Assembly: GCF_012927185.1 (NCBI RefSeq)
Contig: NZ_JABBGB010000002.1
Coordinates: forward strand, 62,001 to 126,000
Direction: 5' to 3'
Origin: Pseudoflavitalea sp. G-6-1-2
Lineage (GTDB): Bacteria > Bacteroidota > Bacteroidia > Chitinophagales > Chitinophagaceae
DNA length: 64,000 nucleotides
Under the pieces are notes generated by a model. That model did not search any database and was not told the origin of the DNA. It worked only from the letters and a program-made list of their open reading frames with translations. Both the position numbers and the translations under genes were made by a program. Positions 3,672 to 51,673 of the stretch are shown piece by piece; the stretch's first letter is position 1; each line of letters starts with the position of its first letter.

Positions 3672-3674
3672 TGT

Positions 3675-7139: not shown

Positions 7140-7146
7140 ACATCCG

Positions 7147-7170
7147 CCAGAAATGTTCCCGCATTTCTGG
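7147..7170 (-). other. Hairpin between FecR and SusC genes
   Basis: A perfect 9-bp inverted repeat, CCAGAAATG / CATTTCTGG, with a 6-base loop lies in the 66-base gap just ahead of the SusC start. On the gene strand it lacks a following T-run, so it is not a normal terminator in that direction. It could tune SusC expression relative to FecR or stabilise the mRNA; this is inference. Confidence 0.4.
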
Positions 7171-7205
7171 TTTTTGTTTTGAGTAAAACCTTTTATGTTG
7201 TTTGA

Positions 7206-8402: not shown

Positions 8403-8455
8403 TATTAACCTAGACACCAAATGAAAAGGGAGGGGTCAATGCCGCACAAAATATT

Positions 8456-30738: not shown

Positions 30739-31752
30739 TCAGCTTGAACTGCGGACTATCAGTTGCGTTTTCAGCACCTTGATCATGCTTTTCCATTCGT
30801 TCACGTCGCGCTTCATCTGATCGATCAGCATTTGCGTGGCTACCTTGCCTATTTCTTTCACCGGTTGGGCAACGGTGGTGAGCGCCGGTTCAATCAATCC
30901 CGATACAAAATCATTGCTGAAGCCCACCACTGCTACATCTCCGGGGATGCGCAGTCCTGCTTTTTTGATGGCGAGAATGGTTTCGATAGCGGTAGGATCG
31001 TTCACTGCGAAGATGGCATCGGGTCTGTTTGGAAGACTCAACAAGTGGTTCACATAGATCTTCACTTTCTCTACATTCAGGTCGTAGTGAATGATCAGTT
31101 CTTCATCGATTGGGATATCGTGCTTTTTCAATGCAGCCTTGTAGCCATTGAGACGGCGTGCGGAGATCACCAGTGAAGGCGGGCCTGCAATATGTGCGAT
31201 GCGTTTATGCCCGCGGAGAATCAGGTGTTCCACTGCATGGAAGGCGCCATCATAATCGTCTACTATCACTTTGGGAACATTCATTTCGTCGCAAACCCTG
31301 TTGAAGAAAACGATGGGAATTCCTTTACGCTGAAATACTTTGAGATGGTCGAAGTTCTTTGTTTCGCGGGTGATGGAGATCAGCACACCATCTACCTGAT
31401 TGGCGAGCATCACTTTTGTATTGGCTACTTCTGTTTCGTAGGTTTCGTTACTCTGACAGATCACAGTGTTGTATCCCGCTCTGGTAGCCACTTCCTGCAC
31501 TTCCATGATTATCTGCGGAAAGAAAGAGCTCATGAATTCGGGAACAATGATGCCGATGGTATTTGTTTTGTGTGTAATGAGACTGATGGCATGCATGTTC
31601 CGTTGGTAGTCGGACTGTGCTGCATATTCCAGCACCGCTTCGCGGGTCTGTTCGCTAACGCTCTTATGTCCGGTCAATGCCCTGGACACTGTGGACTTCG
31701 ACAGATTGAGAGCCTTCGCAATATCGATGATGGTAACCTGACGCCTTTTCAA
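30739..31752 (-). CDS. LacI family transcriptional regulator of the glycan-utilisation operon
   Basis: A 337-residue LacI/GalR regulator. The N-terminal helix-turn-helix VTIIDIAKALNLSKSTVSRAL is followed by a hinge and a periplasmic-binding-protein-like domain (GIIVPEFMSSFFPQII ... VDDYDGAFHAVEHL ... HIAGP). A stop codon lies two codons upstream and no ATG precedes the helix-turn-helix, so TTG at 31752 must be the start. It is divergent from the SusC-to-symporter operon, with a strong double operator 39 bases upstream, so it most likely represses that operon and itself until an imported sugar binds. Confidence 0.95.
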   Translation of the reverse strand: MKRRQVTIIDIAKALNLSKSTVSRALTGHKSVSEQTREAVLEYAAQSDYQRNMHAISLITHKTNTIGIIVPEFMSSFFPQIIMEVQEVATRAGYNTVICQSNETYETEVANTKVMLANQVDGVLISITRETKNFDHLKVFQRKGIPIVFFNRVCDEMNVPKVIVDDYDGAFHAVEHLILRGHKRIAHIAGPPSLVISARRLNGYKAALKKHDIPIDEELIIHYDLNVEKVKIYVNHLLSLPNRPDAIFAVNDPTAIETILAIKKAGLRIPGDVAVVGFSNDFVSGLIEPALTTVAQPVKEIGKVATQMLIDQMKRDVNEWKSMIKVLKTQLIVRSSS

Positions 31753-31790
31753 TTTTCAGATTTGGCACAAGTAACGAATTAATGCGCATT

Positions 31791-31827
31791 CGTGGGAACA
31801 TTCCCGTAAAATGGGAATGTTCCCACG
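31791..31827. promoter_or_regulatory. Double LacI-type operator controlling the glycan operon
   Basis: Two arms of 15 bases, CGTGGGAACATTCCC and its exact complement GGGAATGTTCCCACG, are separated by 7 bases. Each arm contains a LacI-type palindrome GGGAAYRTTCCC, so there are two operators with centres 19 bases apart. The rest of the 264-base divergent gap also has a 9-bp dyad (AAAAGATTT 31869-31877 / AAATCTTTT 31893-31901) and no gene. Confidence 0.8.
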
Positions 31828-32016
31828 GAAATTTTAATGCTTTTTTCTTGCTGGAGAGCGTAAACTTCAAAAGATTTGGATCTGCAAACCTTAAATCTTT
31901 TCCTGTAACAGGCATTTTATTCATAGTCTGAAAACTTTTCAACCAAAAGTCTACGATTGCCGATGTGCTTTTATCCAAAACTGAATCACATCGTTGTTTA
32001 TTAAAGTTGACCCCAT

Positions 32017-35000
32017 ATGAAAAAACGATTTGCGGCCCCTGCTTCCGGTCTATTTCTGCTCGTCTGCCTGCTGGTGACTGCCGCGGGTGTGAGGGCACAG
32101 GAAAATGCTCCGCGTTATTCAAAAACAGTTACAGGCCTTATCACCAATGCGAAAGGCGAGCCCATCGATGGTGCTTCCGTTCAGGTGAAAGGAAAAAAAT
32201 GGGGAGCCATCGCCAATACCAATGGCGTGTACAATCTGGTGATCCCCGACTCCATCAATGTGATGCTGATTTTCTCAGCCACCAATTACCTCAGCAAAGA
32301 GATCCGTTTACCTGCTCAGCAATCGGTGATGAATGCAAAGCTCGAAGAAACTGCACAATCCCTCGAAGATGTGGTAGTGATCGGCTACGGCACCGTGAAG
32401 AAGAAAGATGTTACCGGTGCAGTTGCAACGGCGAACATGGCTGATCTGAAGAAAGCGCCCGTGAACAATTTCGCGGAAGCCCTTGCAGGCCGCATTTCAG
32501 GCGTGCAGGTGAGTTCTTCCGACGGACAACCGGGCAGTGAACTGCAGATCATCATCCGTGGCAACAACTCTGTAACGCAGGATAACTCTCCGCTGTACGT
32601 GATCGATGGTTTTCCGGTAGAGACCGCTTCGGCCAATCTGATAAATCCTGAAGAGATCGAGTCGATCGAAACTTTGAAAGATGCGTCTGCCACCGCCATC
32701 TACGGTGCGCGTGGCGCCAATGGTGTTATCATCATCACCACTAAAAAAGGAAAGATCGGCGCTCCCGTGATTACTTACGATGGCTGGGTGGGCATGCATC
32801 AGAACATCAAAAAGCAGGAGCTGATGAGCCCTTACGAATATGTGAAGATGCAGCTCGAAATGAGTCCCGTACTGAACACGCCCATCTTTCTGAACAATGG
32901 GAAAACACTCGACTCCTACAAAGATGTGAAAGGCGCCGACTGGCAGGACCTGATCTTCCGCAATGGTCTCGTTCACAGTCATAGTCTGGCTGTACGTGGC
33001 GGAACCGACAAAACGCGTTACTCGCTTTCAGGATCACTGCTCGATCAGGAAGGAATGATCATCAACAGCGGGTTCAGGCGTTACCAGGGCAGGTTCTCCA
33101 TCGATCAGACCATCAATACCAAACTCAAAGCAGGTGTGAATATCAACTACACTGCTTACAAAAGATATGGAACCATCGCTGCTGAATCTCAGGGCAGTCC
33201 TACTGCCACTATGATGTACAGCGTGTGGGGATACAGACCGGTAACCGGCGATTCGGAAAGCAGTCTCGAAGACCTGCTCTTCGATCCCAGTGTAGATCCG
33301 AATACAGATTTCAGGATCAATCCGGTGCTGAGTACCAAAAACGAATACAATCCGCTATTCAACAATACGCTGATCATAAATGCCTATGTTGATTACAAAC
33401 TCAGCAAATACCTGAGTTTCCGTGCAACCGGTGGTGTTACCAAAACGCAGATCCGCCGCGAGATCTTCAATAATTCATCCACACGCGGCGGGCATCCGCG
33501 CAATAATCAGGGAGTGAATGGAACCATCACCAATACAGATCTTACCAATCTGCTGAACGAAAACACACTTACGTATAACCGAAGATTCAATAAAGATCAT
33601 AACCTGAATGTACTGGCTGGATTTACCGTGCAGGACATCACCGGAAATATCAATGGATTCACTGCCATGCAGGTGCCTACCGAAGCGCTCGGCATTAAAG
33701 GTTTGGGACAGGGAATCGTAACCGTATCTCCTACCTACGCACCTGCCAGTGGATTGCTGAGCTATCTGGGAAGGATCAATTACGGTTTTAAATCGAAATA
33801 CCTGCTCACGCTGAGTTTCCGTGCAGACGGATCTTCAAAATTCCCAAGGGACAATCGCTGGGCATATTTCCCCTCCGGTGCATTTGCATGGAGACTGGTG
33901 GATGAGAAATTCATGAAGCAGTTCGATTGGCTCTCCGATGCAAAAGTTCGTGTAGGCTATGGTACCACCGGCAATAACCGCGTGAATGACTTCTCTGCAT
34001 GGTCTTCGCTGGAGATCAATCCCACTTCGGGTTACAGCTATGGCAATGCGCCTGGTCAGGGTATGGTGCCGGTGAATCTCGGCAACGACAAACTGAAATG
34101 GGAAACCACTACGCAATCCAATATCGGACTGGATCTCGGTTTCTTCAACAACAGAATAATGCTCACCACCGACTACTATTACAAGAAAACCAGCGACCTG
34201 CTGCTGAATGCAACGCTTGCTCCGTCACAAGGGTTTCTCACCGGTTATAAAAATGTAGGAAAGGTGTCGAACGAAGGCATAGAGTTTACACTCAATACAA
34301 AGAATATTCAGACTAAGAATTTCAGCTGGAGCTCCGGTTTCAACATAGCTTTCAACCGCAACAAAGTACTTGCACTGAACGATGGCGAATCGAGCCTTGC
34401 AACAAGAGTAACCTGGGGTAATTTCAATTCTGCGTTTCCCTATATCGCAGTACCCGGAAATCCGATCGCACTTTTCTATGGCATGCTCTTCGACGGCGTG
34501 TATCAGTACAGCGATTTCGACAAAACATCTGCCGGCACATATGTGCTGAAAGCAGGCATCACAGACAATGGACTTGCACGCGATAAAGTGCAGCCTGGTT
34601 CCATCAAATTCAGAGACCTCAACGGCGATAACCACATCGATGATAAAGACCTTACCATTATCGGCAACCCCAACCCTATTCACTTCGGAGGCTTCACCAA
34701 CAATTTCGCCTGGAAGAATTTCGACCTCAATGTATTCTTCCAGTGGAGTTATGGAAACGATCTGCTGAATGCCAACCGGATTGAATTTGAAGGCGGTGAT
34801 CCCACCACGAGGAACCTGCTCAATATGTTCAAATCGTTTGAGCAAAGATGGACTCCCGAAAATCAAACCAACGACCTGTACAGGGTTGGTGGACAGGGCC
34901 CCGCTTATTATTCATCACGCACTATCGAAGATGGCTCTTACCTGCGACTGAAAACAGTTTCGTTGGGATACAATCTCCCGGACAAAACCATGAAACGCTG

Positions 35001-35175
35001 GAAGATGAAATCGCTGCGACTCTATTTCGCTGCGCAGAATCTGATCACCTGGACCAACTACTCAGGCATCGACCCTGAAGTGAATACCAGACCCGGAGCG
35101 CTCACTCCCGGATTCGACTTCTCACCTTATCCAAGAACACGCACATTGACCTTCGGCCTGAATGCTGCTTTTTAA
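32017..35175 (+). CDS. SusC/RagA family TonB-linked outer membrane glycan transporter
   Basis: A 1052-residue SusC without an STN domain. Signal peptide to about residue 28 (AGVRAQ), carboxypeptidase-regulatory-like domain (about 38-115, VTGLITNAKGEPIDGASVQVKG), TonB box region VVVIGYGTVKKKDVTG, plug with LYVIDGFPVETA and LKDASATAIYGARGANGVI, then a beta-barrel ending ...TLTFGLNAAF. The absence of STN fits control by LacI rather than an ECF/FecR pair. It is the first gene of the operon and the importer for oligosaccharides cut at the surface. Confidence 0.96.
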   Translation: MKKRFAAPASGLFLLVCLLVTAAGVRAQENAPRYSKTVTGLITNAKGEPIDGASVQVKGKKWGAIANTNGVYNLVIPDSINVMLIFSATNYLSKEIRLPAQQSVMNAKLEETAQSLEDVVVIGYGTVKKKDVTGAVATANMADLKKAPVNNFAEALAGRISGVQVSSSDGQPGSELQIIIRGNNSVTQDNSPLYVIDGFPVETASANLINPEEIESIETLKDASATAIYGARGANGVIIITTKKGKIGAPVITYDGWVGMHQNIKKQELMSPYEYVKMQLEMSPVLNTPIFLNNGKTLDSYKDVKGADWQDLIFRNGLVHSHSLAVRGGTDKTRYSLSGSLLDQEGMIINSGFRRYQGRFSIDQTINTKLKAGVNINYTAYKRYGTIAAESQGSPTATMMYSVWGYRPVTGDSESSLEDLLFDPSVDPNTDFRINPVLSTKNEYNPLFNNTLIINAYVDYKLSKYLSFRATGGVTKTQIRREIFNNSSTRGGHPRNNQGVNGTITNTDLTNLLNENTLTYNRRFNKDHNLNVLAGFTVQDITGNINGFTAMQVPTEALGIKGLGQGIVTVSPTYAPASGLLSYLGRINYGFKSKYLLTLSFRADGSSKFPRDNRWAYFPSGAFAWRLVDEKFMKQFDWLSDAKVRVGYGTTGNNRVNDFSAWSSLEINPTSGYSYGNAPGQGMVPVNLGNDKLKWETTTQSNIGLDLGFFNNRIMLTTDYYYKKTSDLLLNATLAPSQGFLTGYKNVGKVSNEGIEFTLNTKNIQTKNFSWSSGFNIAFNRNKVLALNDGESSLATRVTWGNFNSAFPYIAVPGNPIALFYGMLFDGVYQYSDFDKTSAGTYVLKAGITDNGLARDKVQPGSIKFRDLNGDNHIDDKDLTIIGNPNPIHFGGFTNNFAWKNFDLNVFFQWSYGNDLLNANRIEFEGGDPTTRNLLNMFKSFEQRWTPENQTNDLYRVGGQGPAYYSSRTIEDGSYLRLKTVSLGYNLPDKTMKRWKMKSLRLYFAAQNLITWTNYSGIDPEVNTRPGALTPGFDFSPYPRTRTLTFGLNAAF

Positions 35176-35196
35176 ATCATGATTAACTACATTAAC

Positions 35197-36765
35197 ATGA
35201 AACGATTTCTTTTGCTGTTGACAATTACTGCTGCTCTTGGTACATCCTGCAGTAAAGTATTGAATAAAGACCCCGACTTTGTTTCTCCTGAAAACTATTA
35301 CAATAATGAGGCTGACCTCATGAAAGCGCTGAACGGCGTGTACAACCGTCTGATAGATAATTTTGGCCGTGCCTATGGCCGCGGACTCTTCAGCACGCTG
35401 GTGATGAACGATGAATCTTTTTACAGAGGCCTTACCGGCAACGATGTTCGCGTAATGGTATTCGATGCGGGTCACCTCGATATCGGCAGACTCTGGGAAG
35501 TGCTCTACGAAGGCATCAACCGCGCCAACATGCTGCTCGAAAATGTACACAAGGCAAAGATGGATGAAGTGCAACGCAACGCCATCAAAGGCGAAGCTCT
35601 CTTTCTGCGTGCATACTTCTATTACCTGCTGGCCGATATGTATGGATCGGTTCCGTTGAAACTCTATTCAACCAAATCTCCTACCGACGAAAACCTGCCA
35701 GCAGCGCCACTCACCGAGATTTTTGCTCAGATTGTAAAGGATATGAAAGAAGCAGAAACGCTCGTAAATGAGATCAGCTATTTTTCACACAACGAAAGAA
35801 TATCCAAAACCGCTGTACAGGCGATACTGGCAAGAGTATACCTGAAAATGGCGGGTGAACCGATGCGCGATATCGACAGATACAAAGATGCATTGGAATA
35901 CTGCAACAAAGTGATCGCTTCAGGTAAACATTCCCTCAACCCCGATTTCAAACAGATCTTCATCAATCACTCTAAAAATATCAACGAGAGCAAAGAGTGC
36001 ATCTGGGAAATAGGCATGTTCGGAAACAAGATCGGCAATTTCGATCTGGCAGGTTCTGTAGGTGTGGAGAATGGCATCGAGTGCCCAAGTGAAGCAATCG
36101 GATGGTCGAGCGGCGGTATGAAGATCACAGCAAAACTGTACAATCTCTTCGGCACCAAAGACACTGCCCGCCGAGATTGGAGCATCGCTACCTATCGTTA
36201 TGTTACCTCAGGCACCAATACTGTAAAAACCAACTGGACGGCTGCACAGATCTACGATCGCAATCCCGGCAAATGGCGCAGGGAATACGAAACAGAAGCG
36301 AAGGCAAGACAGTACAACTCCACAAACTTCCCTGTTATCCGTTATTCGGATGTATTGCTGATGAAAGCAGAAGCAGAGAATGAAGTGAACCAGGCGCCCA
36401 ATGCAGAAGCCATGGATGCCATCAACAAAGTGAGAAGACGTGCATTCGGCAAACCGGTAGATGTTCCCAATGCAGATGCGGACCTTCCGGCGATCACCGA
36501 TAAAGTGGCTTTCCTCACGGAGATTCAGAACGAGCGCCTGCGCGAGCTTTGCTTCGAAGGCCTCCGCAAGCACGATCTGATCCGCTGGGGTATTTACGTT
36601 ACCACCATGAATAACCTCGCAAATGACATTACGGCAACTGCACCTGCAGCTTACAAATATGCAGCCACAACCGGCAACAACACTACTGCAAGGCATGTGC
36701 TCTTCCCTATTCCGGTGAATGAGATCACCATCAATAAACATATCAAACAAAACCCAGGGTATTGA
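35197..36765 (+). CDS. RagB/SusD family glycan-binding outer membrane lipoprotein
   Basis: A 522-residue SusD. The start at ATG 35197 (MKRFLLLLTITAALGTSC) gives a lipobox ending at Cys18; a start six codons upstream is possible. After SKVLNKDPDFVSPENYYNNEADLMKALNGVYN come TPR-like helices and the C-terminal RagB/SusD motif (IQNERLRELCFEGLRKHDLIRWG ... LFPIPVNEI). It pairs with the SusC 21 bases upstream and caps its barrel. Its glycan specificity is not readable from sequence. Confidence 0.96.
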   Translation: MKRFLLLLTITAALGTSCSKVLNKDPDFVSPENYYNNEADLMKALNGVYNRLIDNFGRAYGRGLFSTLVMNDESFYRGLTGNDVRVMVFDAGHLDIGRLWEVLYEGINRANMLLENVHKAKMDEVQRNAIKGEALFLRAYFYYLLADMYGSVPLKLYSTKSPTDENLPAAPLTEIFAQIVKDMKEAETLVNEISYFSHNERISKTAVQAILARVYLKMAGEPMRDIDRYKDALEYCNKVIASGKHSLNPDFKQIFINHSKNINESKECIWEIGMFGNKIGNFDLAGSVGVENGIECPSEAIGWSSGGMKITAKLYNLFGTKDTARRDWSIATYRYVTSGTNTVKTNWTAAQIYDRNPGKWRREYETEAKARQYNSTNFPVIRYSDVLLMKAEAENEVNQAPNAEAMDAINKVRRRAFGKPVDVPNADADLPAITDKVAFLTEIQNERLRELCFEGLRKHDLIRWGIYVTTMNNLANDITATAPAAYKYAATTGNNTTARHVLFPIPVNEITINKHIKQNPGY

Positions 36766-36788
36766 TTGTGCACCTCAAATTATCATTC

Positions 36789-37682
36789 ATGAAAAGATAT
36801 TCCTTATATATTCCGATGCTGGCACTGCTCGCTGTTTCATGTGCTAAAGTGAAAGTGCCGAAAGCCGATCTCACTGTAACTACTTCTTCGCTTACTTACA
36901 AAGCAGGAGATACTGTTACGTTTCAATTTGCCGGCAATCCGGATAACATCACTTTCTATTCAGGAGAAGTCGGACGCAATTATGATTACAGAACGCGCAC
37001 CAAAGCAGATAACAGTCTCCAGATAGATTTCAAAAGTTTCGTATCGTTCAGCCCCATTTATCAGAATCTGCAACTGATGGTATCCAACAATTTCAATGGA
37101 ACAGTGGATGCGGCCAATGTGAGTGCAGCTACCTGGACGGATATCAGCCAGCTCGCTACTTTCTCTGCCGGTGCCGACAATGTTGCATCCGGAGTAATAG
37201 ATCTCCGGCCATATCTCGGCAATGCAGAAACGCCGAATGTGTATGTTGCTTTCAGGTACACCGAGCCGGCGCGGACAACTGGCCAGAACCGTTGGGTGAT
37301 CCGCAGTTTCAATGCAGACCTGGTTACACCCGAAGGGCAACTGACCAATCTCGCACAGATGGCAACAGGTGGATGGAAGTCTGTGGACTTCAAGAATCCT
37401 GCTGCGGTATGGACCATCACCAGCGCGCAGTTGCTGATGTATGGCGGGGCAGGAAATGTTGCGGAGAACGAAGACTGGGTGATCTCCAAACCGCTTGTGG
37501 TAAGCAAAAGCATTCAGCCCGATGCCGGCCTTGCACTGAAAAATATCAGCAAGACAATGAGCAGCTACCAGCACGTTTACAAAACACCTGGCACATACAA
37601 AGCTGTATTTGTATCATCTGCCATTCGATACAACGGAGAAAACAGTCAAACACAGGAACTCACTTTCACTATTACGCCCTGA
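36789..37682 (+). CDS. DUF5017 domain-containing surface lipoprotein
   Basis: A 297-residue lipoprotein starting at ATG 36789 (MKRYSLYIPMLALLAVSC, Cys18). The next part, FQFAGNPDNITFYSGEVGRNYDYRTR, is the hallmark of DUF5017 (PF16409), a Bacteroidota family found right after SusC/SusD genes. The C-terminal YKTPGTYKAVFVSSAIRY adds a PKD/Ig-like strand set. By position it corresponds to the SusE/SusF-type surface glycan-binding proteins, which hold the polysaccharide near the enzymes. It follows SusD by 23 bases. Confidence 0.85.
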   Translation: MKRYSLYIPMLALLAVSCAKVKVPKADLTVTTSSLTYKAGDTVTFQFAGNPDNITFYSGEVGRNYDYRTRTKADNSLQIDFKSFVSFSPIYQNLQLMVSNNFNGTVDAANVSAATWTDISQLATFSAGADNVASGVIDLRPYLGNAETPNVYVAFRYTEPARTTGQNRWVIRSFNADLVTPEGQLTNLAQMATGGWKSVDFKNPAAVWTITSAQLLMYGGAGNVAENEDWVISKPLVVSKSIQPDAGLALKNISKTMSSYQHVYKTPGTYKAVFVSSAIRYNGENSQTQELTFTITP

Positions 37683-37685
37683 TTC

Positions 37686-43200: not shown

Positions 43201-43651
43201 AGCCGTAAATGCACCGGTTCAAATAAATGCAGGAGGAAAATCAAAAACGGTGAAGTCTGCGCTGAACAATCATGAATTGTCTGTATCCCTTTCTGGTAAA
43301 GGCATTTCAATGATTGCCATTCCCTTGGAAAAGAAAAATGCATTCACCGCTATCACTCCTGTGAAAGATGGAATGAAAGTGATTGATGCCGGAGCACCAT
43401 GGGGCAAGGTTTTCCTTTTCAGGATCAGATCGCCTTTCGGTTGGGATTCTGTGTACGGATTTGCAGAAACAGCGCCGCTCGCCAATGCATCGGTGACTAT
43501 CAGCTGCAACCAGCAGACACAAACAAAAAATGAATATCCATTTGAATGGAGTTTTTATAAACTGAAACCAGAGGAAAAAGCGGAAGTGAAACTCCGGTTT
43601 ACATCAGGTGATCAGGTGAAAGAAGAAACAATTGTTCTGGAAGGAAATTAA
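40280..43651 (+). CDS. Secreted alpha-toroid protein with N-terminal carbohydrate-binding-like domain, candidate glycan-active enzyme 2
   Basis: A 1123-residue protein starting within the preceding stop (TAATG), so translation is coupled. Signal peptide to about residue 19, then a jelly-roll-like domain (20-150, YLVEAETFQFQGGW ... YAVWVRSADF) of the kind fused to many glycan enzymes. A beta-rich region (about 170-480), an (alpha/alpha) toroid (about 490-905) and C-terminal beta domains follow. Its toroid end (YHHIPAHLAFSWDYLITEA, RSGKAISFP) lines up with PHHAWWQVGWITDYLLAEI and RSGNGIEFP of the previous gene, so the two are distant relatives. No known family was recognised. Confidence 0.75.
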   Translation: MTRWLTILLMIISCNAFAQRYLVEAETFQFQGGWFTEKSASCLGNTMLRVQGGKGAADALTVIEVAGGRYAVWVRSADFKEKQGTRLLRLSVDEQPMEEAGRHGVEGFAWEKVGTVMLERKQVLLRLRDSRKNFARCDAVLLTADTAIDPNNQTFAELAKFRTAPVKMQAANAVTPAVSPYLVIPSGAPVIAEIKNEKLRMRFVKGGANKTAIVAKTEYYADGEWRSVNSFYEDHKVYLLSAQDPAITFGNFFPSWNGSKGKSYIMHDGKKIEMQEPEALLNPFLSGDLSEAIPVEAIKLNDSSIEVKYITSDHSVITGIWSLGKNAGHVTVQLQCMPAKSGYYSMALAAFQAMDAARVTNVQLPPMFQYKRISPYPVMLASSMMQQPVAITETKVGSGLLSTFISGEANSFSADWGMSESSPMGFAIKNESNKVQPVAFAPVLGLKNSKKSAGQSFSQTFAIGVIPAGWENALEYISEQVYKVRDYRKQSQGSLTDGLFNMIDLVKNDDAAGWDNSMKGFYDIEADPGSSPTVAHAAPLAMLSTAAITRDEDFYLKRSLPTIEYTLSRSGYRWAKAIVPSAYNNSEKTLLLNPFNSQFTTAYYEGLNRFTEGANPWISKIALPDNKIRTALGYSVNIPAWVQELAAYKLTNNSSWLNSAIANADRFITTQVNSNTITPMGKGAFYNANFYAYWWDLPDLYEATNDSKYLRAAEYSAFQTIAGIRSVPQVQDSLQKIHPGNKYEGNNSLWWKNKEKFRLGFPRKSGDAPEKHVAAQLVSPVGLGFEQPFTYFEPDKTVRPVFMSSWAPHLLRLYQFTNREIFQTYARNAVIGRFTNYPGYYATGYTDITMQPDFPYKGPDVSSIYYHHIPAHLAFSWDYLITEAIQRSGKAISFPYSKQDGFVWFTNRMYGAGKGTINEDKNARLWMKRGLIELNTPEVNYITAISDDKFYVILLSESNTALPVTVKLSKETGVAVNAPVQINAGGKSKTVKSALNNHELSVSLSGKGISMIAIPLEKKNAFTAITPVKDGMKVIDAGAPWGKVFLFRIRSPFGWDSVYGFAETAPLANASVTISCNQQTQTKNEYPFEWSFYKLKPEEKAEVKLRFTSGDQVKEETIVLEGN

Positions 43652-43656
43652 TAATC

Positions 43657-45084
43657 ATGAAAAAAAACGTACCTGCTTTAGCGCTTTCCATGCTCCTTGC
43701 ACTCGGAGGTTTCCGGGCATCAGCACAGACAGATGCAGAACTCAAAAGAATGTCTGCCTCTCAGGCTGGCGCTTCGCCCCTGTTCTTTGATCCGGCAACT
43801 GAAAAGATTCCGGCTATCGATCCGGGTAATTTTTCCGATGCACGCGAAACCGTTGTCCGTGGAGGCCTGCCGAATTTCTTTGCGAAGATCAAAGCCGGCA
43901 AACCCGTTACTGTCGGGCTTATCGGAGGAAGCATTACGCAGGGGATGTATTGTTATCGCACGCAGGCTACTCAATACATACAGAAGCGTTTGCCAGATGT
44001 GAAATTCAACTGGCTGAATGCCGGCGTTTCCGGAACGGGCACCGATCTCGCCTCCTGCCGTATTGGCGAACAGATCCTGAAACATAATCCTGATCTCGTT
44101 TTCATCGAGTTTGCTGTGAATGGAGGATTTCAGCCGGGCATGGAAGGAATGATTCGTCAGATCATCCGCAACAATCCTTCTACAGATATCTGCCTGATCT
44201 ATACTGTGCTCAATCCGCAGGCAAAAAAATACATGGAACAAACCATTCCGGAGCCGATCCAAAGTCTTGAAAAGATGGCTGCTTACTACGACCTGCCTGG
44301 CATTCATATGGGTATCGAAGCCGCCACTCTGGAAGCAAACAATAAGCTGATCTGGAAAGGTGATACTGCTGCTATCAAAGACAAGATTGTTTTTTCTGCG
44401 GATGGCATTCACCCGCTTCGCGAAGGTGGAAACCTGTATGCAAACGCCATTGCCAGAGGATTTGACAAGCTGATGGAAAAAACAGTAGCTGCACAAAAGC
44501 AGCATGTTCTTCCTACAGCCATCATTGCTTCCAACTGGGAAGATGCGAAGATGCTCGACCCGTTGGAGTCCGCACAATTCAGCAAAGGATGGACCCGCAT
44601 AGACACAAAAGAAAATGCAAAACTCAGACAGTTCAACAGCTGGTTTCCCTACGTGATGAAATGCGAAAAACCAGGTGCCGGTTTCACTTTCCGGTTCAAA
44701 GGTTCCATGTTCGGATTCTTCGATATTGGCGGACCGGAAATGGGTCAGGTTACGGTAACCATCGATGGAAAAGTGGTGAAGATGAAAGAAGCTTCCGGTA
44801 AAGGTTTCCGTCTCCTCAATATCGATAGCACGGGCAATGAACTGGTGAATCGCTTCAACAACTTCTGCAATAACCGCTATCGCGGACAATATGAGTTCAT
44901 CGAAACTACAGATGGTGAACACATGGTGACCATCACACTGTCAGGAGAAAAAGCAGACAAGGCAAAAATACTCGGAGAAAAACAACTGCAGGACATAACC
45001 GAACACCCTGAAAAGTACGACAGAACCGTAATGTATCTCGGAAAGATCCTGCTCAGAGGGGAACTGATCAAAAAAGAAAAGTAG
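43657..45084 (+). CDS. SGNH/GDSL-family hydrolase, probable carbohydrate esterase
   Basis: A 475-residue secreted hydrolase (signal MKKNVPALALSMLLALGG, cut near SAQ). The SGNH catalytic blocks are present: Ser92 in GGSITQG, Gly in NAGVSGTG, Asn155 in EFAVNGG, and Asp249/His252 in DGIHP. The C-terminal 200 residues form an extra beta-sandwich (FTFRFKGSMFGFFDIGGPEMGQ-type strands). In glycan operons such enzymes remove acetyl or other acyl esters from the polysaccharide backbone so that cleavage can proceed. It sits five bases after the preceding gene in the same operon. Confidence 0.88.
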   Translation: MKKNVPALALSMLLALGGFRASAQTDAELKRMSASQAGASPLFFDPATEKIPAIDPGNFSDARETVVRGGLPNFFAKIKAGKPVTVGLIGGSITQGMYCYRTQATQYIQKRLPDVKFNWLNAGVSGTGTDLASCRIGEQILKHNPDLVFIEFAVNGGFQPGMEGMIRQIIRNNPSTDICLIYTVLNPQAKKYMEQTIPEPIQSLEKMAAYYDLPGIHMGIEAATLEANNKLIWKGDTAAIKDKIVFSADGIHPLREGGNLYANAIARGFDKLMEKTVAAQKQHVLPTAIIASNWEDAKMLDPLESAQFSKGWTRIDTKENAKLRQFNSWFPYVMKCEKPGAGFTFRFKGSMFGFFDIGGPEMGQVTVTIDGKVVKMKEASGKGFRLLNIDSTGNELVNRFNNFCNNRYRGQYEFIETTDGEHMVTITLSGEKADKAKILGEKQLQDITEHPEKYDRTVMYLGKILLRGELIKKEK

Positions 45085-45091
45085 ACTAACA

Positions 45092-47581
45092 ATGATGAAG
45101 CGAATAGCCATTGCAATATTGCTGACAAGCGCTCTCACCGCGCATGCGCAGGTGTACAAAGACAAAAACGCAGCTGTTGAAGCGCGTGTGAACGACCTGC
45201 TTTCCCGCATGACGCTGGAAGAAAAGATCGACTACATAGGAGGATACAAAGGATTTTACATCAGAGGAATCGAACGGCTGGGACTTCCGGAGATCAAACT
45301 CACCGACGGTCCTGTGGGAACGCACAAAGATGGAAAATCAACCGCCTATCCTGCCAGCATTCTGTCGGCTGCAACATGGGATACGGCTCTGGTGTACCAG
45401 TTAGGCAAACAATTGGGAAGAGATTCCAAAGCAAGAGGTGTGCACGTATTGCTCGCACCGGGCGTGAATATTCTCCGTGCTCCGATGGGTGGCAGAAACT
45501 TTGAATACTTCAGTGAAGATCCTTACCTCAACTCGCGTGTCGCAGTTGCGTACGTGAAAGGACTGCAGGACGAAAAAGTGGTTGCCACTGTAAAACATTA
45601 TGCTGCCAACAATCAGGAATGGGACAGACATAACACCAGCAGCGATATAGACGAACGCACCTTACACGAGATCTATCTTCCCGTGTACAAAGCCACCGTG
45701 CAGGAAGCAAAAGCGGGCAGCATCATGACCAGCTACAACCCTGTTAACGGCGTACATGCTTCACAAAATGACGTACTCAACAATAAGATTCTGAAACAAA
45801 AATGGGGCTTCGACGGCTTCGTGATGAGCGACTGGAGCTCCACCTACGATGGCGTTGCTGCTGCAAACGGAGGGCTCGATCTCGAAATGCCCCGCGCCAG
45901 GTCCATGACCAAAGAGATATTGATCCCTGCCATTCAGAAAGGATTGGTAAAAGAATCAACCATCGATGATAAAGTGAAACGGATGCTTCGCATCATCTTC
46001 CGTTTCGGATTCTTCGACAACAAACAACTGGATACCAGCATACCCATGGATAATCCGGATGCCGCAAAAGTGGCGCTGGAACTGGCACGCAGCGGAATGG
46101 TATTGCTGAAGAACAAAGGCAGCCTGCTTCCTTTAGACGCTTCCAAAACAAAAACGCTGGCTGTTATTGGTCCGAATGCCAATGCCTATATTTCCGGAGG
46201 TGGAAGTTCTTATACTTTCCCTTTCCATTCTGTTTCTACATTGCAGGGAATCAACAATGTGGTGCCGCAGGTAAAAACTGTTTATGCTCCAGGTCTTCCT
46301 ACCCTTCCCGATCTGGTATCGCAATCGGTTTTTTACACAGAGAAAGGAAGTTCTGTAAAAGGATTGAAAGCTGAGTATTTCAGCAATATCAAACTGGAAG
46401 GCGCTCCGGCGAAAACCGTGATCGATACCACCATCAGCATCAACAATGGATGGCATATTGCGGCGGAGAATCAGGGCATTCCCTTCGATCATTGCTCTAT
46501 GCGCTGGACCGGTGTTGTGCGTCCATCAAAGTCTGCGGGATATCGTTTCACTGTTCGCGGGTTCGATGGCTTCAGGCTCTACGTAGATACGGCGCTCGTG
46601 ATAAACGAATGGCGCGATCAGGGCATCACCACCCGCGAAGCGGTAGTACAGTTCGAAGCCGGAAAAGAATATACCGTAAGGCTGGAATACTTTGCCAACG
46701 TGCATCCTGTAGACATCAGCTTCGCATGGCGCGAAGACAAAATTTTATTCGACGAAGCTGTGACTGCTGCTGCTACATCCGATGCGGCCATCGTGTGCAT
46801 CGGTTTCAACGAAAGCAGCGAGCGCGAAAGCAACGACAGAACATTTGCATTGCCACAGTATCAGGATAGCCTGGTACAAAGCATCGTGGCTGCCAATCCC
46901 AATACCATCGTATTGCTCAATGCTGGCGGTAACGCAGACATGAGCCGCTGGATAAATAAAGTGCCTGCATTGCTGCATATCTGGTATGCAGGCCAGGAAG
47001 GAGGAACTGCAATAGCTGAAGCATTGTTCGGAAAACTGAACCCTTCCGGAAAACTGCCGGTGAGTTTTGAAAAACAATGGGCGGATAATCCTGCTTACAA
47101 TTACTACTACGATTCTGCCAACAGCAAACGCGTGACATACAAAGAAGGACTGTTCATGGGGTATCGCCACTACGATCGGAGTACGGTGAAACCCTTATTC
47201 CCATTCGGTTTTGGACTGAGCTACACCAGTTTCAGCTACAGCGGTCTTACACTGAAAAATGTTGCTGCAAAAGAACCCAAAGTAATAGTGCAGTTCAAAT
47301 TAACCAATACCGGAAAAACAGCCGGAGCGGAAGTAGCGCAGGTGTACGTACGCGAAGTGAATGCCAAAGAAAAACGGCCCTACAAAGAATTGAAAGGATT
47401 TGCCAAAGTGTTCCTCCAACCGGGAGAAACAAAAACAGTGAAGGTTTCGCTGGACAAGTCTGCATTCGAATACTATCGTGTTGCGAAACACGATTTCGCA
47501 CATGATGCAGGCGAGTTCGAAATAATGGTAGCGTCATCGGCGGAGTCCATCAAACTGAGCAAGAAGATCACAATCAAATAG
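45092..47581 (+). CDS. Glycoside hydrolase family 3 beta-glycosidase with PA14 insert
   Basis: An 829-residue GH3 enzyme. Signal peptide (to HAQ, about residue 20), GH3 TIM-barrel (residues 30-300) with catalytic nucleophile Asp247 in FVMSDWS and substrate motif KHYAANNQEWDRH, then the alpha/beta sandwich. A PA14 domain (about 425-560, GLKAEYFSNIKLEG) is inserted before the acid/base loop at Glu577/Glu579 (NESSERESNDR). A C-terminal fibronectin-III-like domain ends it. GH3 enzymes with PA14 usually release terminal beta-linked glucose, xylose or related sugars; which one is not clear. Likely periplasmic, acting on imported oligosaccharides. Confidence 0.95.
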   Translation: MMKRIAIAILLTSALTAHAQVYKDKNAAVEARVNDLLSRMTLEEKIDYIGGYKGFYIRGIERLGLPEIKLTDGPVGTHKDGKSTAYPASILSAATWDTALVYQLGKQLGRDSKARGVHVLLAPGVNILRAPMGGRNFEYFSEDPYLNSRVAVAYVKGLQDEKVVATVKHYAANNQEWDRHNTSSDIDERTLHEIYLPVYKATVQEAKAGSIMTSYNPVNGVHASQNDVLNNKILKQKWGFDGFVMSDWSSTYDGVAAANGGLDLEMPRARSMTKEILIPAIQKGLVKESTIDDKVKRMLRIIFRFGFFDNKQLDTSIPMDNPDAAKVALELARSGMVLLKNKGSLLPLDASKTKTLAVIGPNANAYISGGGSSYTFPFHSVSTLQGINNVVPQVKTVYAPGLPTLPDLVSQSVFYTEKGSSVKGLKAEYFSNIKLEGAPAKTVIDTTISINNGWHIAAENQGIPFDHCSMRWTGVVRPSKSAGYRFTVRGFDGFRLYVDTALVINEWRDQGITTREAVVQFEAGKEYTVRLEYFANVHPVDISFAWREDKILFDEAVTAAATSDAAIVCIGFNESSERESNDRTFALPQYQDSLVQSIVAANPNTIVLLNAGGNADMSRWINKVPALLHIWYAGQEGGTAIAEALFGKLNPSGKLPVSFEKQWADNPAYNYYYDSANSKRVTYKEGLFMGYRHYDRSTVKPLFPFGFGLSYTSFSYSGLTLKNVAAKEPKVIVQFKLTNTGKTAGAEVAQVYVREVNAKEKRPYKELKGFAKVFLQPGETKTVKVSLDKSAFEYYRVAKHDFAHDAGEFEIMVASSAESIKLSKKITIK

Positions 47582-47622
47582 AAATTCATCATTACGAAAG
47601 AATAAACTGAAAAAACAATCCT

Positions 47623-49902
47623 ATGATATTTAGTGAAGGAGGAGAAAAACGTGCGCTCACCCTGAAAACTGTTGAGACGGATCTCGTGATCGTTGGCGGC
47701 GGTGTATCCGGCGCATGTGCGGCCATCACAGCGGCCAGAAAAGGCGTGAAAGTAGTTTTGATTCAGGACAGGCCGGTGCTCGGCGGCAATGCCAGCTCTG
47801 AAGTGAGATTATGGATGCTGGGCGCTACTTCGCATATGGGCAACAACAATCGTTGGGCAAGAGAAGGCGGTGTAGTGGATGAACTGATGGTGGAAAATAT
47901 GTACCGCAACAAAGAGGGCAATCCACTCATCTTCGATACGGTATTGCTCGATAAAGTACGTTCCGAATCGAATATCACGCTGCTGCTGAATACTGCAGTG
48001 TATGATGTAGAGAAGTCAACCGCTGATGAGATCAGCGCTGTGAAAGCCTTTTGCAGTCAGAATTCCACGGAGTATCTGGTGAAAGCACCACTGTTCTGTG
48101 ATGCATCCGGAGACGGTATTGTTGGTTTTCTTGCAGGTGCTGCATTCCGAATGGGTGCAGAAAGCAAGGAAGAATTCGGAGAGTTATTCGCGCCATCAAA
48201 AGAATATGGAGAGTTGTTGGGGCATAGCCTTTATTTCTACAGCAAGGATACCGGAAGGCCGGTGAAATTTGTTGCTCCCTCCTATGTTTTGCAGGATATC
48301 ACCACTATTCCGCGTTTTAAGAATTTCAATACGCGCGAGTATGGCTGCAAGCTCTGGTGGCTCGAATATGGTGGCCGTCTCGATACAGTGCACGATACAG
48401 AAACCATCAAATGGGAACTCTGGAAAGTTGCCTACGGTGCATGGAATTACATCAAGAATTCCGGCAATTTTCCTGAAGCAGAAAATCTCACATTGGAATG
48501 GGTAGGCACTATTCCCGGTAAAAGAGAAAGTCGCCGGTTCGAAGGAGAATATATGCTGAAGCAACAGGATGTTGTAGAACAGAGAACGCACGAAGATGCG
48601 GTGGCATTCGGCGGATGGAGCATCGATCTTCATCCTGCGGATGGCGTGTTCAGTGAAAAGCCGGGTTGCAACCAGTGGCATAGCAAGGGCATCTATCAGA
48701 TTCCCTATCGTACCATGTACAGCCGCAATATCAAAAATCTTTTTCTTGCTGGAAGGATCATCAGCGCAAGCCATGTTGCATTCGGATCATCGCGCGTAAT
48801 GGCCACTGCAGCGCATGCTGCGCAGGCTGTTGCGATGGCAGCAGTGCTTTGCCTTCAGAAGAAAATTCAACCTGCCGATTTGTATCATAAAGGTTTTGTT
48901 GCTGAATTGCAGACTGCCTTGCTGCAATCGGGGCATCATATTCCCGGCATTGTTCTGAACGATCAGCAGGATCTGGTGAAGCAAGCTTCGATTACTGCCA
49001 GCAGCGAACTGGTGCTTACGGAACTGCCCGAAAGCAATCTGCTGAAATCGCTTGAAACAGCTGTGGCGCAGATGGTGCCGCTTCGCGAAGGCAAGGTGGA
49101 AGATTTCATTTTCCATGCACAATCCGATAAAGAAACAACGCTTGAAGTTGAACTCCGTATCAGCAGCAAGCAATCGAACCATACTCCCGACTTAACTATT
49201 TCGAAACAAACTGTGCAGATCAATCCGGGCAGAAACTGCATCAGGATTGCGTTTGACGCACTGATGCCACATGATGCCTATGCATTCGTTACCTTCCTGA
49301 AAAATGCGGATGTGCAATTGCATTTCTCTCCGCAACGCATTTCCGGGGTATTGTCGGTATTCAACAGCATCAACAAAGCTGTATCGAATTATGGCAAACA
49401 AACGCCTCCGGATGATCTCGGTGTAGATGCGTTTGAATTCTGGTGTCCCAAAAGAAGACCGGATGGAGAGAACATCGCATTCAAATATCCTGCAGGTATT
49501 GCTGCTTTCGGCGCGGCCAATATTGCCAATGGCATCGACAGGCCGGTATTTGCACCCAATGCATGGGTGGCATCTTTTGAAGATAAACAACCTGCGTTGA
49601 CTATCGCATGGAATGCACCACAGACGATTTCTGCGATCGATATATTGTTCGATACGGATTATGATCATCCGATGGAATCTGTGCTGATGGGGCATCCTGA
49701 AGATGTAATGCCTTTCTGTATCCGCCACTATTCAATCAAAGATGAGAAAGGAAATCTGCTGTTTGAAAAGATTGGCAATTACCAGACGCTGAACAGCATC
49801 CGGTTCGAAAAACCAGTTACGGCAAGCAGTCTCGTTATTGAAGTGGAACATCCATCTGCGGATGTACCTGCAGCAATATTTTCTGTAAGATGTTATCAGT
49901 AA
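47623..49902 (+). CDS. FAD-dependent oxidoreductase fused to C-terminal beta-sandwich domains
   Basis: A 759-residue protein without signal peptide. The N-terminus is a Rossmann FAD-binding site (DLVIVGGGVSGACAAITAARKG, residues 20-41), then LGGNASSEVRLWMLGA typical of the PF12831 FAD_oxidored group and a second FAD segment GLSRNIKNLFLAGR-like (MYSRNIKNLFLAGRIISASHVAFGSSRVMAT) near residues 365-395. Beyond residue 460 the protein turns into beta-rich domains, the last (about 640-759) resembling a discoidin-like carbohydrate-binding fold. Such enzymes are common in Bacteroidota glycan loci, but their reaction is mostly undefined; oxidation of a sugar or uronate in the cytosol is a reasonable guess. 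Confidence 0.82.
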   Translation: MIFSEGGEKRALTLKTVETDLVIVGGGVSGACAAITAARKGVKVVLIQDRPVLGGNASSEVRLWMLGATSHMGNNNRWAREGGVVDELMVENMYRNKEGNPLIFDTVLLDKVRSESNITLLLNTAVYDVEKSTADEISAVKAFCSQNSTEYLVKAPLFCDASGDGIVGFLAGAAFRMGAESKEEFGELFAPSKEYGELLGHSLYFYSKDTGRPVKFVAPSYVLQDITTIPRFKNFNTREYGCKLWWLEYGGRLDTVHDTETIKWELWKVAYGAWNYIKNSGNFPEAENLTLEWVGTIPGKRESRRFEGEYMLKQQDVVEQRTHEDAVAFGGWSIDLHPADGVFSEKPGCNQWHSKGIYQIPYRTMYSRNIKNLFLAGRIISASHVAFGSSRVMATAAHAAQAVAMAAVLCLQKKIQPADLYHKGFVAELQTALLQSGHHIPGIVLNDQQDLVKQASITASSELVLTELPESNLLKSLETAVAQMVPLREGKVEDFIFHAQSDKETTLEVELRISSKQSNHTPDLTISKQTVQINPGRNCIRIAFDALMPHDAYAFVTFLKNADVQLHFSPQRISGVLSVFNSINKAVSNYGKQTPPDDLGVDAFEFWCPKRRPDGENIAFKYPAGIAAFGAANIANGIDRPVFAPNAWVASFEDKQPALTIAWNAPQTISAIDILFDTDYDHPMESVLMGHPEDVMPFCIRHYSIKDEKGNLLFEKIGNYQTLNSIRFEKPVTASSLVIEVEHPSADVPAAIFSVRCYQ

Positions 49903-49927
49903 GTCACAACAGGTATAATTTAGCAAT

Positions 49928-51610
49928 ATGAATTCAGCTATCGATGCTAGTGTAATTGCGGTGTTCTCGGTATTTATCATGCTGGTGGGGTTCTCCTTCT
50001 CGCGCACGGGACGTAACCTGAAATCGTTCTTCGCAGGCGGTGAAGCAGTGCCCTGGAGCATTGGAGGATTATCACTCTTCATGAGTTTTTTCTCTGCCGG
50101 CACTTTTGTGGCATGGGGTTCGATCGCCTATCAGCATGGATGGGTGGCCATCACCATTCAATGGACCATGTGTATCGGTGGATTGATCACCGGCCTATAC
50201 CTCGCTCCAAAATGGAAGGCAACCGGCAATCTCACTGCTGCTGAATTCATCAAAGAAAGATTGGGTGTGAAGGTGCAGAAATCCTTCATCTACATATTCA
50301 TGCTGGTATCGTTATTCATCAAGGGTTCAGTATTGTACTCAGTGGCCAAGCTGGTAGGTTCTTCGCTGAACCTGCCGCTTGTGCCGGTTACTGTTGTGCT
50401 GGGTATTCTGATGATTGCCTACACGGCCGTTGGTGGTTTGTGGGCAGTGATGGTAACGGATATTCTTCAGTTTGTAATTCTCACTGCTGCTGTGCTGCTG
50501 ATCATTCCACTTGTGTTTAAAGAAGCAGGTGGGCTCAGCCAGTTTCTGGCAGCCAAACCCGAAGGTTTCTTCGAGCCGGTTAATGGAGATTACACCTGGG
50601 GATTTATCGCGGCTTTCGCCATCTACCATATTTTCTATATCGGTGGCAACTGGACTTTCGTTCAGCGATACACAAGCGTTGATACGCCGAAATCCGCATC
50701 CAAAGTAGCTTTCCTGTTTGCAGCATTGTATGTGATCAGTCCGATCTTATGGATGCTGCCACCGATGGTGTACAAAACCATCAACCCATCGCTGGTGGGA
50801 CTGGATACAGAAAATGCATATCTGATGGTTTGCAAACAGGTATTGCCGGCCGGCCTGATGGGACTGATTCTTACAGGCATGTACTTCTCTACTTCGGCAT
50901 CTGCCAACACTGCCTTGAATGTGGTGTCGGCAGTATTCACCAATGATATTTACAAAGGCAGCATCAACCCTGCTGCATCGGATAAGAAACTGATGCAGGT
51001 AGCACGTACATCGAGCTGGCTCTTCGGATTCGGCATGATTGCCATTGCATTGATTGTGCCCTATATCGGCGGCATCGTTGAATTTACATTGAGCATCGGA
51101 GCCATCACCGGCGGCCCATTGCTGGCCCCTCCTATCTGGGCGCTGTTTTCGAAACGGCTTACGGGTAAGGCAACTATCGTTATTACCGTGGTGAGCCTTG
51201 CCGTGAACCTGCTGTTCAAAATGATCCTTCCCTTTACCCTGCACTTCAAATTGTCGCGCGGAAGCGAAATGCTGCTGGGTGTTGCCTTACCGGCCATTCT
51301 GCTGGTGATCTATGAATTGTACGCAGCTTCGAAAGGGTCGATTAGTATGGAGTATATCGATATGCAGCAACGCAGAGCGAAAAGAAAACAGGAAGGGATT
51401 ACAGTAAGCGAAGAAGAAAAACAACAAATTAAAAGGCAGAATAAATTCGGACTGAAGATCATAGCTTTCTCACTCGCCTTTACATCGGTGCTGCTGTTTG
51501 TGTTGAGTGCAATCACCGATAAAGGATCTTCGATGGTAGTGTTGATCGCTTCGATCATATTGGTGTTGGCTTTGATTCCATTTAGAAGCGCCGCAAAGAT
51601 CAAATGCTGA
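49928..51610 (+). CDS. Sodium:solute symporter (SSS family)
   Basis: A 560-residue inner membrane symporter of the SLC5/SSS type with about 13-14 membrane segments. It has the conserved family stretches FFAGGEAVPWSIGGLSLFMS near the start, the TAAEFIKERLG motif, and TGMYFSTSASANTALNVVSAVFTNDIYKG around helix 8-9. The Lys/Arg-rich loop RRAKRKQEG precedes the last helices. It is the last gene of the operon, 25 bases after the oxidoreductase, followed by a strong terminator. It most likely brings the mono- or disaccharide released by the secreted enzymes into the cytosol, coupled to sodium. Confidence 0.94.
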   Translation: MNSAIDASVIAVFSVFIMLVGFSFSRTGRNLKSFFAGGEAVPWSIGGLSLFMSFFSAGTFVAWGSIAYQHGWVAITIQWTMCIGGLITGLYLAPKWKATGNLTAAEFIKERLGVKVQKSFIYIFMLVSLFIKGSVLYSVAKLVGSSLNLPLVPVTVVLGILMIAYTAVGGLWAVMVTDILQFVILTAAVLLIIPLVFKEAGGLSQFLAAKPEGFFEPVNGDYTWGFIAAFAIYHIFYIGGNWTFVQRYTSVDTPKSASKVAFLFAALYVISPILWMLPPMVYKTINPSLVGLDTENAYLMVCKQVLPAGLMGLILTGMYFSTSASANTALNVVSAVFTNDIYKGSINPAASDKKLMQVARTSSWLFGFGMIAIALIVPYIGGIVEFTLSIGAITGGPLLAPPIWALFSKRLTGKATIVITVVSLAVNLLFKMILPFTLHFKLSRGSEMLLGVALPAILLVIYELYAASKGSISMEYIDMQQRRAKRKQEGITVSEEEKQQIKRQNKFGLKIIAFSLAFTSVLLFVLSAITDKGSSMVVLIASIILVLALIPFRSAAKIKC

Positions 51611-51640
51611 TCTGACAAGTGTTTCTGTGTTTTGCTCCTG

Positions 51641-51673
51641 AACAGTCCGTAGCCAAAAGCGGGCTGTTTTTTT
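51641..51673 (+). terminator. Terminator of the glycan-utilisation operon
   Basis: Stem AACAGTCCG / CGGGCTGTT (9 bp with one G-T pair), loop of 10 bases, then a run of seven T, 30 bases after the symporter stop. This marks the end of the nine-gene unit. The rest of the 206-base gap 51611-51816 holds no gene. Confidence 0.8.

Follow-up and report, generated by a model that had tools for sequence, protein, structure and literature searches.

A conserved Sus-type locus of Pseudoflavitalea with unassigned toroid proteins, a candidate oxidative module and a putative LacI regulon

The stretch of DNA considered here, referred to as the window, comprises 64,000 nucleotides of contig NZ_JABBGB010000002.1 (positions 62,001 to 126,000) of Pseudoflavitalea sp. 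G-6-1-2, a member of the Chitinophagaceae (Bacteroidota). It contains a conserved Sus-type locus with unassigned proteins and a candidate oxidative module, and the regulon of this locus extends beyond positions 30739-51673 of the window. Nine plus-strand genes at 32017-51610 follow one another with tight spacing, beginning with SusC and ending with a sodium:solute symporter (Table 1), and the order given in the original prediction was recovered by open reading frame calls combined with Pfam and NCBIfam assignments. The intergenic distances run from -4 to 41 bases with the frames as opened; if the DUF5017 gene starts at its ATG, which is likelier than the TTG at 36762 because it yields a lipoprotein signal, the lower end of this range rises to -1. 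SusC and SusD are adjacent and linked to GH3 and SGNH genes, which together constitute both structural hallmarks of a polysaccharide utilisation locus. The strong terminator predicted at the end of the operon is also present as a hairpin of 11 pairs (-17.5 kcal/mol, z -3.0), and none of 200 shuffled sequences (0/200) scored as well. A promoter scan restricted to the sigma-70 consensus, which is not informative for Bacteroidota, gave 11 matches versus 27.4 in shuffles. The genome (6.1 Mb, with the window on contig 2) holds one full copy of the first toroid gene, TorA, and one copy of the oxidoreductase gene. Over the part of the TorA tail that was compared, four loci from genomes of the window's family are identical to loci in records named Longitalea (two), Chitinophaga and Chitinophagaceae bacterium.

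Table 1. Features of the operon in the window and of the related operon upstream (positions refer to the window unless stated otherwise).
Feature	Position	Strand	Basis
LacI-family regulator	30739-31752	-	Divergent from operon; Pfam LacI and Peripla_BP
Paired operator (putative)	31791-31827		Perfect inverted repeat; same spacing conserved in relatives
SusC/RagA TonB-dependent transporter	32017-35175	+	TIGR04056, E 2e-270
SusD-like glycan-binding lipoprotein	35179-36765	+	PF07980, E 1.2e-39; lipobox by eye
DUF5017 lipoprotein, likely glycan-binding	36789-37682 (frame opens at TTG 36762)	+	PF16409, E 8.8e-51; lipobox by eye
TorA, exported beta-sandwich and helical toroid protein	37686-40280	+	Sub-threshold GH88 only; good structure model
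TorB, exported TorA paralogue with N-terminal CBM35-like domain	40280-43651	+	Homology to TorA; structure match of N-terminal domain
SGNH/GDSL esterase, probable de-O-acylase	43657-45084	+	PF13472; 6hfz, E 1.9e-13
GH3 glycosidase carrying PA14 and Fn3-like domains	45092-47581	+	Pfam/NCBIfam
Flavin adenine dinucleotide (FAD) oxidoreductase PF12831, without visible export signal	47623-49902	+	E 2e-97; co-occurrence with TorA
Sodium:solute symporter	49928-51610	+	PF00474, E 7.8e-32
Intrinsic terminator	51640-51673	+	Hairpin 51640-51669 and T run
Satellite operon, outside the window	G000:C2:53182-57727 (= L196:9183-13728)	+	Operator pair and three plus-strand genes

The two large proteins encoded in the middle of the operon had been described as related toroids without a family assignment, and searches of Pfam, NCBIfam and PDB sequences support this description. 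TorA (864 aa) is homologous to TorB (1123 aa; BLASTP E 4e-25, 22% identity over 750 columns) and to TorC (E 3e-24), the name given to a further family, of about 945 aa, that occurs in relatives. For neither protein did these searches return a Pfam match above cut-off or an informative NCBIfam or PDB-sequence match; NCBIfam had nothing for TorA, its single match for TorB was weak and implausible, and the PDB sequence search with the window TorA and TorB gave no convincing match. Several assignments were considered and rejected, including TorA as GH88 (16.6 bits versus a Pfam gathering cut-off of 26.6), TorB as GH127 (15.9 bits versus 24.9), and TorA as GH127 or as D-glucuronyl C5-epimerase, for both of which the window protein has no match at E 0.1 and the relative at locus L081 scores above the cut-off (25.5 versus 24.9 and 27.3 versus 23.3, respectively). 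Membership of TorA in the family of the lyase BACCELL_00875, which we take to be PL27, was likewise rejected, since its structure 5no8 is absent from the PDB sequence matches, up to E 1, of a profile built from 19 TorA members; the best match of this profile is an alpha-1,6-mannanase (E 0.0046, 75 positions). Among these members, weak Pfam matches to GH88 (17/19), GH127 (16/19), C5-epimerase (16/19) and PL10 (2/19) are read as evidence of a shared superfamily.

The claim of a toroid fold holds well for TorA, whose model is good (predicted local distance difference test score 86.1, pTM 0.89) and shows a beta / helical / beta layout, whereas the model of TorB is poor (66.7 and 0.49) and its fold is suggested mainly by homology. 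Whole-protein fold assignment of TorB was therefore dropped in favour of its N-terminal domain, which appears similar to CBM35 structures (TMt 0.71). The best Foldseek match of TorA is BACCELL_00875 (5no8, E 1.3e-10, template modelling (TM) score 0.28/0.33), and structures of cellobiose phosphorylase, GH65, GH116, GH97 and GH52 enzymes occur among the 50 matches listed. TorA and TorB resemble the helical-toroid enzymes (GH88, GH127, GH76 and BACCELL_00875) in the helical toroid and in weak profile similarity over the helical part, and differ from them in falling below every cut-off and, for TorA, in TM scores of at most 0.33. The invariant residues of TorA are E447, E448, D518, D565, D571, E639, H640, H658, H712 and H713. 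In one genome (L042:13506-17795, minus strand), a single uninterrupted reading frame of 1430 aa spans the symporter and TorA, representing either a fusion or a lost stop.

The distribution of these genes was followed in 264 TorA relatives from one scan, the best 80 of which, spread across Bacteroidota, were taken as loci with flanks ending at 10 kb (loci and genomes are cited below by L and G numbers). On the plus strand of these 80 loci, SusC is present in 78, SusD in 77, the symporter in 64, the oxidoreductase in 55 (including a match of only 26% at L094) and DUF5017 in 49, followed by SGNH and TorB (40 each), GH3 and TorC (16 each), GH97 and GH2 (13 each) and a GH28-like protein (9). TorA and the oxidoreductase form the conserved core, joined by the symporter in the majority of loci, while the other enzymes vary; nearly the same gene set as in the window is found at L072, in a genome named Bacteroides congonensis.

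The combination of toroid protein and oxidoreductase singled out in the original prediction proved to be a strong link in two family samples, comprising 195 genomes of the window's family and 150 genomes of the family of G436, in which full-length TorA was counted. In the former, the oxidoreductase is present in 16/16 TorA genomes and in 25/195 overall; in the latter, where TorA is frequent (65/150 genomes), the corresponding counts are 64/65 and 71/150. When pooled, 80/81 TorA genomes carry both genes, and Fisher p values of 2e-17 (window's family) and 4e-33 (G436 family) were obtained with relatedness ignored. For 79/82 TorA copies, the oxidoreductase shares the contig and starts less than 17 kb away; in G587 and G711, which are fragmented genomes, the two genes fall on different contigs, and the third genome (G692) has no oxidoreductase match. 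These tallies exclude genomes with only a 40-43% paralogue match (G106, from 26 to 25; G597 and G715, from 73 to 71), as well as the TorA fragment in G153 and partial TorB/TorC-type matches (from 22 genomes to the 16 used), and retain broken or partial oxidoreductase matches in G578, G662, G640, G711 and G627. In a sample of 395 genomes from the phylum, a close oxidoreductase was found in 6, including all four with full-length TorA.

The PF12831 oxidoreductase is well conserved, with a mean column identity of 70% across 18 proteins. Naming the enzyme from solved structures was rejected, as the FAD-binding region alone aligns. Its occurrence outside TorA loci was sampled in ten stretches without a close TorA (L181-L190), of which eight contain SusC or SusD and seven a symporter, with partners including GH29 (L181, L185), GH95 (L184), GH97, GH2 and TorC-like genes, and TorB in L190. 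At L185, a major facilitator superfamily transporter takes the place of the symporter.

The double operator reported upstream of SusC consists of two copies of TGGGAAYRTTCCCA with starts 19 bp apart, represented in the window by TGGGAACATTCCCG at 31793 and TGGGAATGTTCCCA at 31812, and is confirmed as a perfect 15-nt inverted repeat (31791-31805 and 31813-31827) around a 7-nt spacer. A LacI gene and a conserved palindromic operator upstream of the operon are thus both present, as would be expected of LacI control judged by sequence. Within the window, a search for the operator half with at most 2 mismatches gave two matches, both exact, versus 0.40 expected, and at least two matches were obtained in 4/100 shuffles; this constitutes modest evidence, and the inverted repeat also scores as a terminator-like hairpin. 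The substantive support comes from conservation in relatives, for which 100 fetched loci were reduced to 94 distinct TorA loci by counting four duplicates once and leaving out two without TorA. An operator site is present in 39/94 of these loci and a pair in 32/94, with a spacing of exactly 19 bp in 39/45 pairs, 20 in five and 22 in one; at L040, a LacI protein 74% identical to that of the window is encoded beside the same operator pair. In the 100 loci, 110 sites were found, whereas none of ten base shuffles of all these loci yielded more than a single site and two control patterns yielded none. The site occurs in 29/39 loci with a LacI gene versus 10/55 without one, so that TorA loci lacking LacI mostly lack the operator as well. 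A GntR-type regulator was identified at L081 (251-1276, minus strand) by a profile scan of that locus, and its gene family is found in 25/80 named loci, L081 included. Across the 94 loci, the genes downstream of pairs are SusC (26 pairs), GH97 (8), TorC (3) and the oxidoreductase (3), and the same regulator therefore probably serves several promoters in relatives.

In the Pseudoflavitalea genome itself, sites with at most 1 mismatch gave 31 matches over both strands versus 2 for the control, and pairs of such sites occur at two places only, namely the window operator and C2:53182-53214, which lies 41 kb upstream of the former and 8.8 kb before the start of the window. The satellite operon behind this second pair begins with a gene for an exported 441-aa protein, the C-terminus of which resembles a secretion-sorting tail by eye, and which has relatives (39-47%) in six TorA loci, five of them named Pedobacter. 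The second gene encodes a 706-aa beta-helix protein, 58-59% identical to beta-helix proteins within TorA loci L043, L046 and L084, and the third a PD40 protein. The beta-helix protein is homologous to a solved GH110 structure (9beh, E 1.6e-8, residues 338-631), a likeness that holds at the level of the family. In three distinct relatives (L043=L062, L046=L065 and L084), the homologous gene is part of the TorA operon; in L060 and L068, it adjoins that operon in the opposite direction. Two claims of the original prediction consequently have to be revised: the operon is not complete in the sense of containing the whole regulon, and it does not follow that the two toroid proteins must be the ones to cleave the backbone, as a GH110-like beta-helix protein is encoded behind the second operator pair.

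The location of the enzymes was assessed from their N-termini. By eye, TorA, TorB, SGNH and GH3 of the window have ordinary export signals, no export signal was seen in the oxidoreductase, and SusD and DUF5017 carry a lipobox. In a crude test over the 94 loci, a lipobox is absent from TorA (88/94), TorB (41/49), SGNH (47/48), GH3 (21/21) and the oxidoreductase (65/66), and present in DUF5017 (31/43) and SusD (48/63). With ordinary export signals in the window and no lipobox in most relatives, TorA, TorB, SGNH and GH3 appear to be located in the periplasm, where their substrates would be oligosaccharides already taken up, not the surface polymer. With regard to the substrate, the GH97 protein of L043 is nearest to alpha-galactosidases (3a24, E 5.1e-45) and to 5xfm (E 2.2e-43), which is listed as a beta-arabinopyranosidase, and the best curated model for the window GH3 is an alpha-L-arabinopyranosidase (509 bits versus a cut-off of 1300). 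The SGNH protein shares the SGNH core with the esterase 6hfz, presumably a CE17 acetyl mannan esterase, over residues 75-295, the rest of the protein being unaligned. Together with the GH110-like beta-helix protein, these similarities faintly suggest an acylated glycan bearing galactose or arabinopyranose.

The operon is read here, with a fair degree of probability, as the principal unit of a Sus-type regulon for polysaccharide utilisation under LacI control, with a stepwise mechanism that includes an oxidative step. Binding of an inducer would free the paired operator from LacI, after which SusC, SusD and DUF5017 would capture an acylated glycan fragment and carry it across the outer membrane. 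Once in the periplasm, the fragment would lose its acyl groups to the SGNH esterase and be trimmed by GH3 at beta-linked (or alpha-L-arabinopyranosyl) ends; the remaining linkages would be cut by TorA and TorB, as toroid enzymes without a confident family. The symporter would then take up the released mono- or disaccharide for oxidation by a presumably cytoplasmic PF12831 flavoenzyme, and the satellite operon, under the same operator pair, would contribute the GH110-like beta-helix protein and the exported protein. Both the order of these steps and the direction of the redox reaction are presumed. The gene layout fits the sequence of binding, deacylation, cutting, trimming, import and oxidation originally proposed, except that cutting by the toroids alone is not sustained.

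A number of observations weigh against this reading. TorA is patchy in the phylum, being full-length in 4/395 sampled genomes, and its Foldseek TM scores of at most 0.33 among the 50 matches listed support a fold class but not a mechanism. The oxidoreductase is absent from the fetched stretch of 25/80 loci; many of these end before the operon does, but four of them, the Pedobacter loci L079, L081, L083 and L092, have a fetched stretch that includes the symporter and genes beyond. Conversely, it occurs without TorA in 9/25 genomes of the window's family and 7/71 of the G436 family, adjoining GH29, GH95, GH2, GH97 or TorC-like genes, and therefore is not specific to the product of TorA; both the PF12831 profile and the single sequence match solved structures in the FAD-binding region only. 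An operator site is lacking, at the stringency used, in 10/39 loci with LacI. The GH110 and GH97 similarities are at family level only, a scan confined to window proteins, with no genome-wide search, showed no GH97, and since relatives vary in their accessory enzymes, they may also vary in substrate.

Somewhat unlikely, and compatible with the regulon reading favoured above, is the alternative that the utilisation locus is an ordinary one, its oxidoreductase being a peripheral enzyme that oxidises aldoses or serves in detoxification, and that TorA and TorB belong to a named CAZy family absent from Pfam and NCBIfam. The Sus-type layout is common, and the weak superfamily matches of TorA agree with this explanation. 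As in the Sus-like loci of Bacteroidota, an operon-like arrangement combines a SusC/SusD pair, a surface lipoprotein, an esterase, a glycoside hydrolase and an inner-membrane transporter with its own regulator; unlike them, the window operon has no classical endo-enzyme and instead contains two unassigned toroids and a linked flavoenzyme, together with a remote satellite operon. A peripheral role is difficult to reconcile with an oxidoreductase that is retained in more loci (55/80) than GH3 (16), GH97 (13) or GH2 (13) and that lies almost always near TorA in the two family samples.

Less probable is the explanation that TorA and TorB act on a uronic-acid glycan, either as polysaccharide lyases or as unsaturated-uronyl hydrolases, with the flavoenzyme handling the uronate. 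It draws on the lyase BACCELL_00875 as top Foldseek match of TorA, on the weak GH88, C5-epimerase and PL10 matches, with L081 above the C5-epimerase cut-off, and on a GH28-like partner in 9/80 loci. However, the TM scores to 5no8 are low, this structure is missing from the PDB sequence matches, the GH127 matches are equally weak (16/19), and the Pfam scan revealed no recognised uronate-catabolism gene in the operon.

More doubtful still is a route in which oxidation comes first, with the sugar ring oxidised by PF12831 enzymes and the activated residue then cleaved by elimination, through toroids of the TorA type or through other partners, in the manner of 3-keto-glycoside pathways but with unrelated enzymes. 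Besides the tight linkage of TorA and oxidoreductase, the observations that favour it come from relatives. A second PF12831-like protein occurs in seven loci (L056, L125, L129, L132, L134, L135 and L138), in each case with an apparent export signal and the motif of the TorB N-terminal domain (L125 and L132 were scanned with Pfam); in L125, the sole pair compared, the domain matches that of TorB with a BLASTP E of 5e-20. These apparently secreted proteins with a TorB-type binding motif, which also count in favour of the oxidative step in the regulon reading, provide the best evidence that such flavoenzymes act on glycans. The gene adjoining the second PF12831-like protein carries a DxxxGAT motif in 6/7 loci, which we take to be akin to flavinylation sites, and the two such proteins scanned in Pfam gave no flavin family match. 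An ApbE-type gene family, typed at L125, is present in three TorA loci (L125, L130 and L134), of which L125 and L134 combine it with the secreted PF12831-like and DxxxGAT proteins. In five Sphingobacterium loci (L103, L104, L111, L112 and L113, with L104 scanned), a gene of the 3-keto-disaccharide hydrolase family follows directly after the symporter. This family, PF06439, is associated with 3-keto-glycoside pathways, which the present loci resemble in placing glycoside oxidation next to glycan import and from which they differ in the use of PF12831 as redox enzyme. The route is nevertheless disfavoured, as the window TorA has an export signal while none is seen in the oxidoreductase, so that TorA would not meet its product, as the hydrolase family is limited to 5/80 loci of a single genus, with no PF06439 match among ten window proteins scanned in Pfam, and as the oxidoreductase is also found without TorA.

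The least probable proposal considered is an undescribed system of oxidative glycan depolymerisation in Bacteroidota, within one LacI regulon defined by the fixed 19-bp operator pair. Its PF12831 enzymes, cytoplasmic here but in other species secreted, equipped with a carbohydrate-binding domain and accompanied by a flavinylated electron carrier, would act on the glycan or on fragments of it by oxidising a ring position, and residues of this kind would be what the Tor toroids make or cleave. If true, nature would have solved oxidation-assisted glycan cleavage a second time, independently.

Regarding the wider significance of the favoured regulon, three related families (TorA, TorB and TorC) without assignment in the libraries searched accompany a flavoenzyme with a predicted partner, and the exact operator allows the regulon to be traced in relatives, including members outside the locus. 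Solving the module could name the substrate of many loci and the role of PF12831 oxidoreductases beside glycan genes. A literature search at the level of titles and abstracts found no description of this TorA/oxidoreductase module, and none of the gene clusters seen in passages of PMC9131120 and PMC12758843 matched the operon. A plasmid search for TorA, covering 72,556 records, gave no match.

The neighbouring genes of the window, among which a sulfate permease, a methyltransferase and a two-component system were recognised (twenty proteins scanned), are apparently unrelated to the operon. A separate cluster of SusD, SusC and FecR genes lies at the left end of the window (2208-8420, minus strand).

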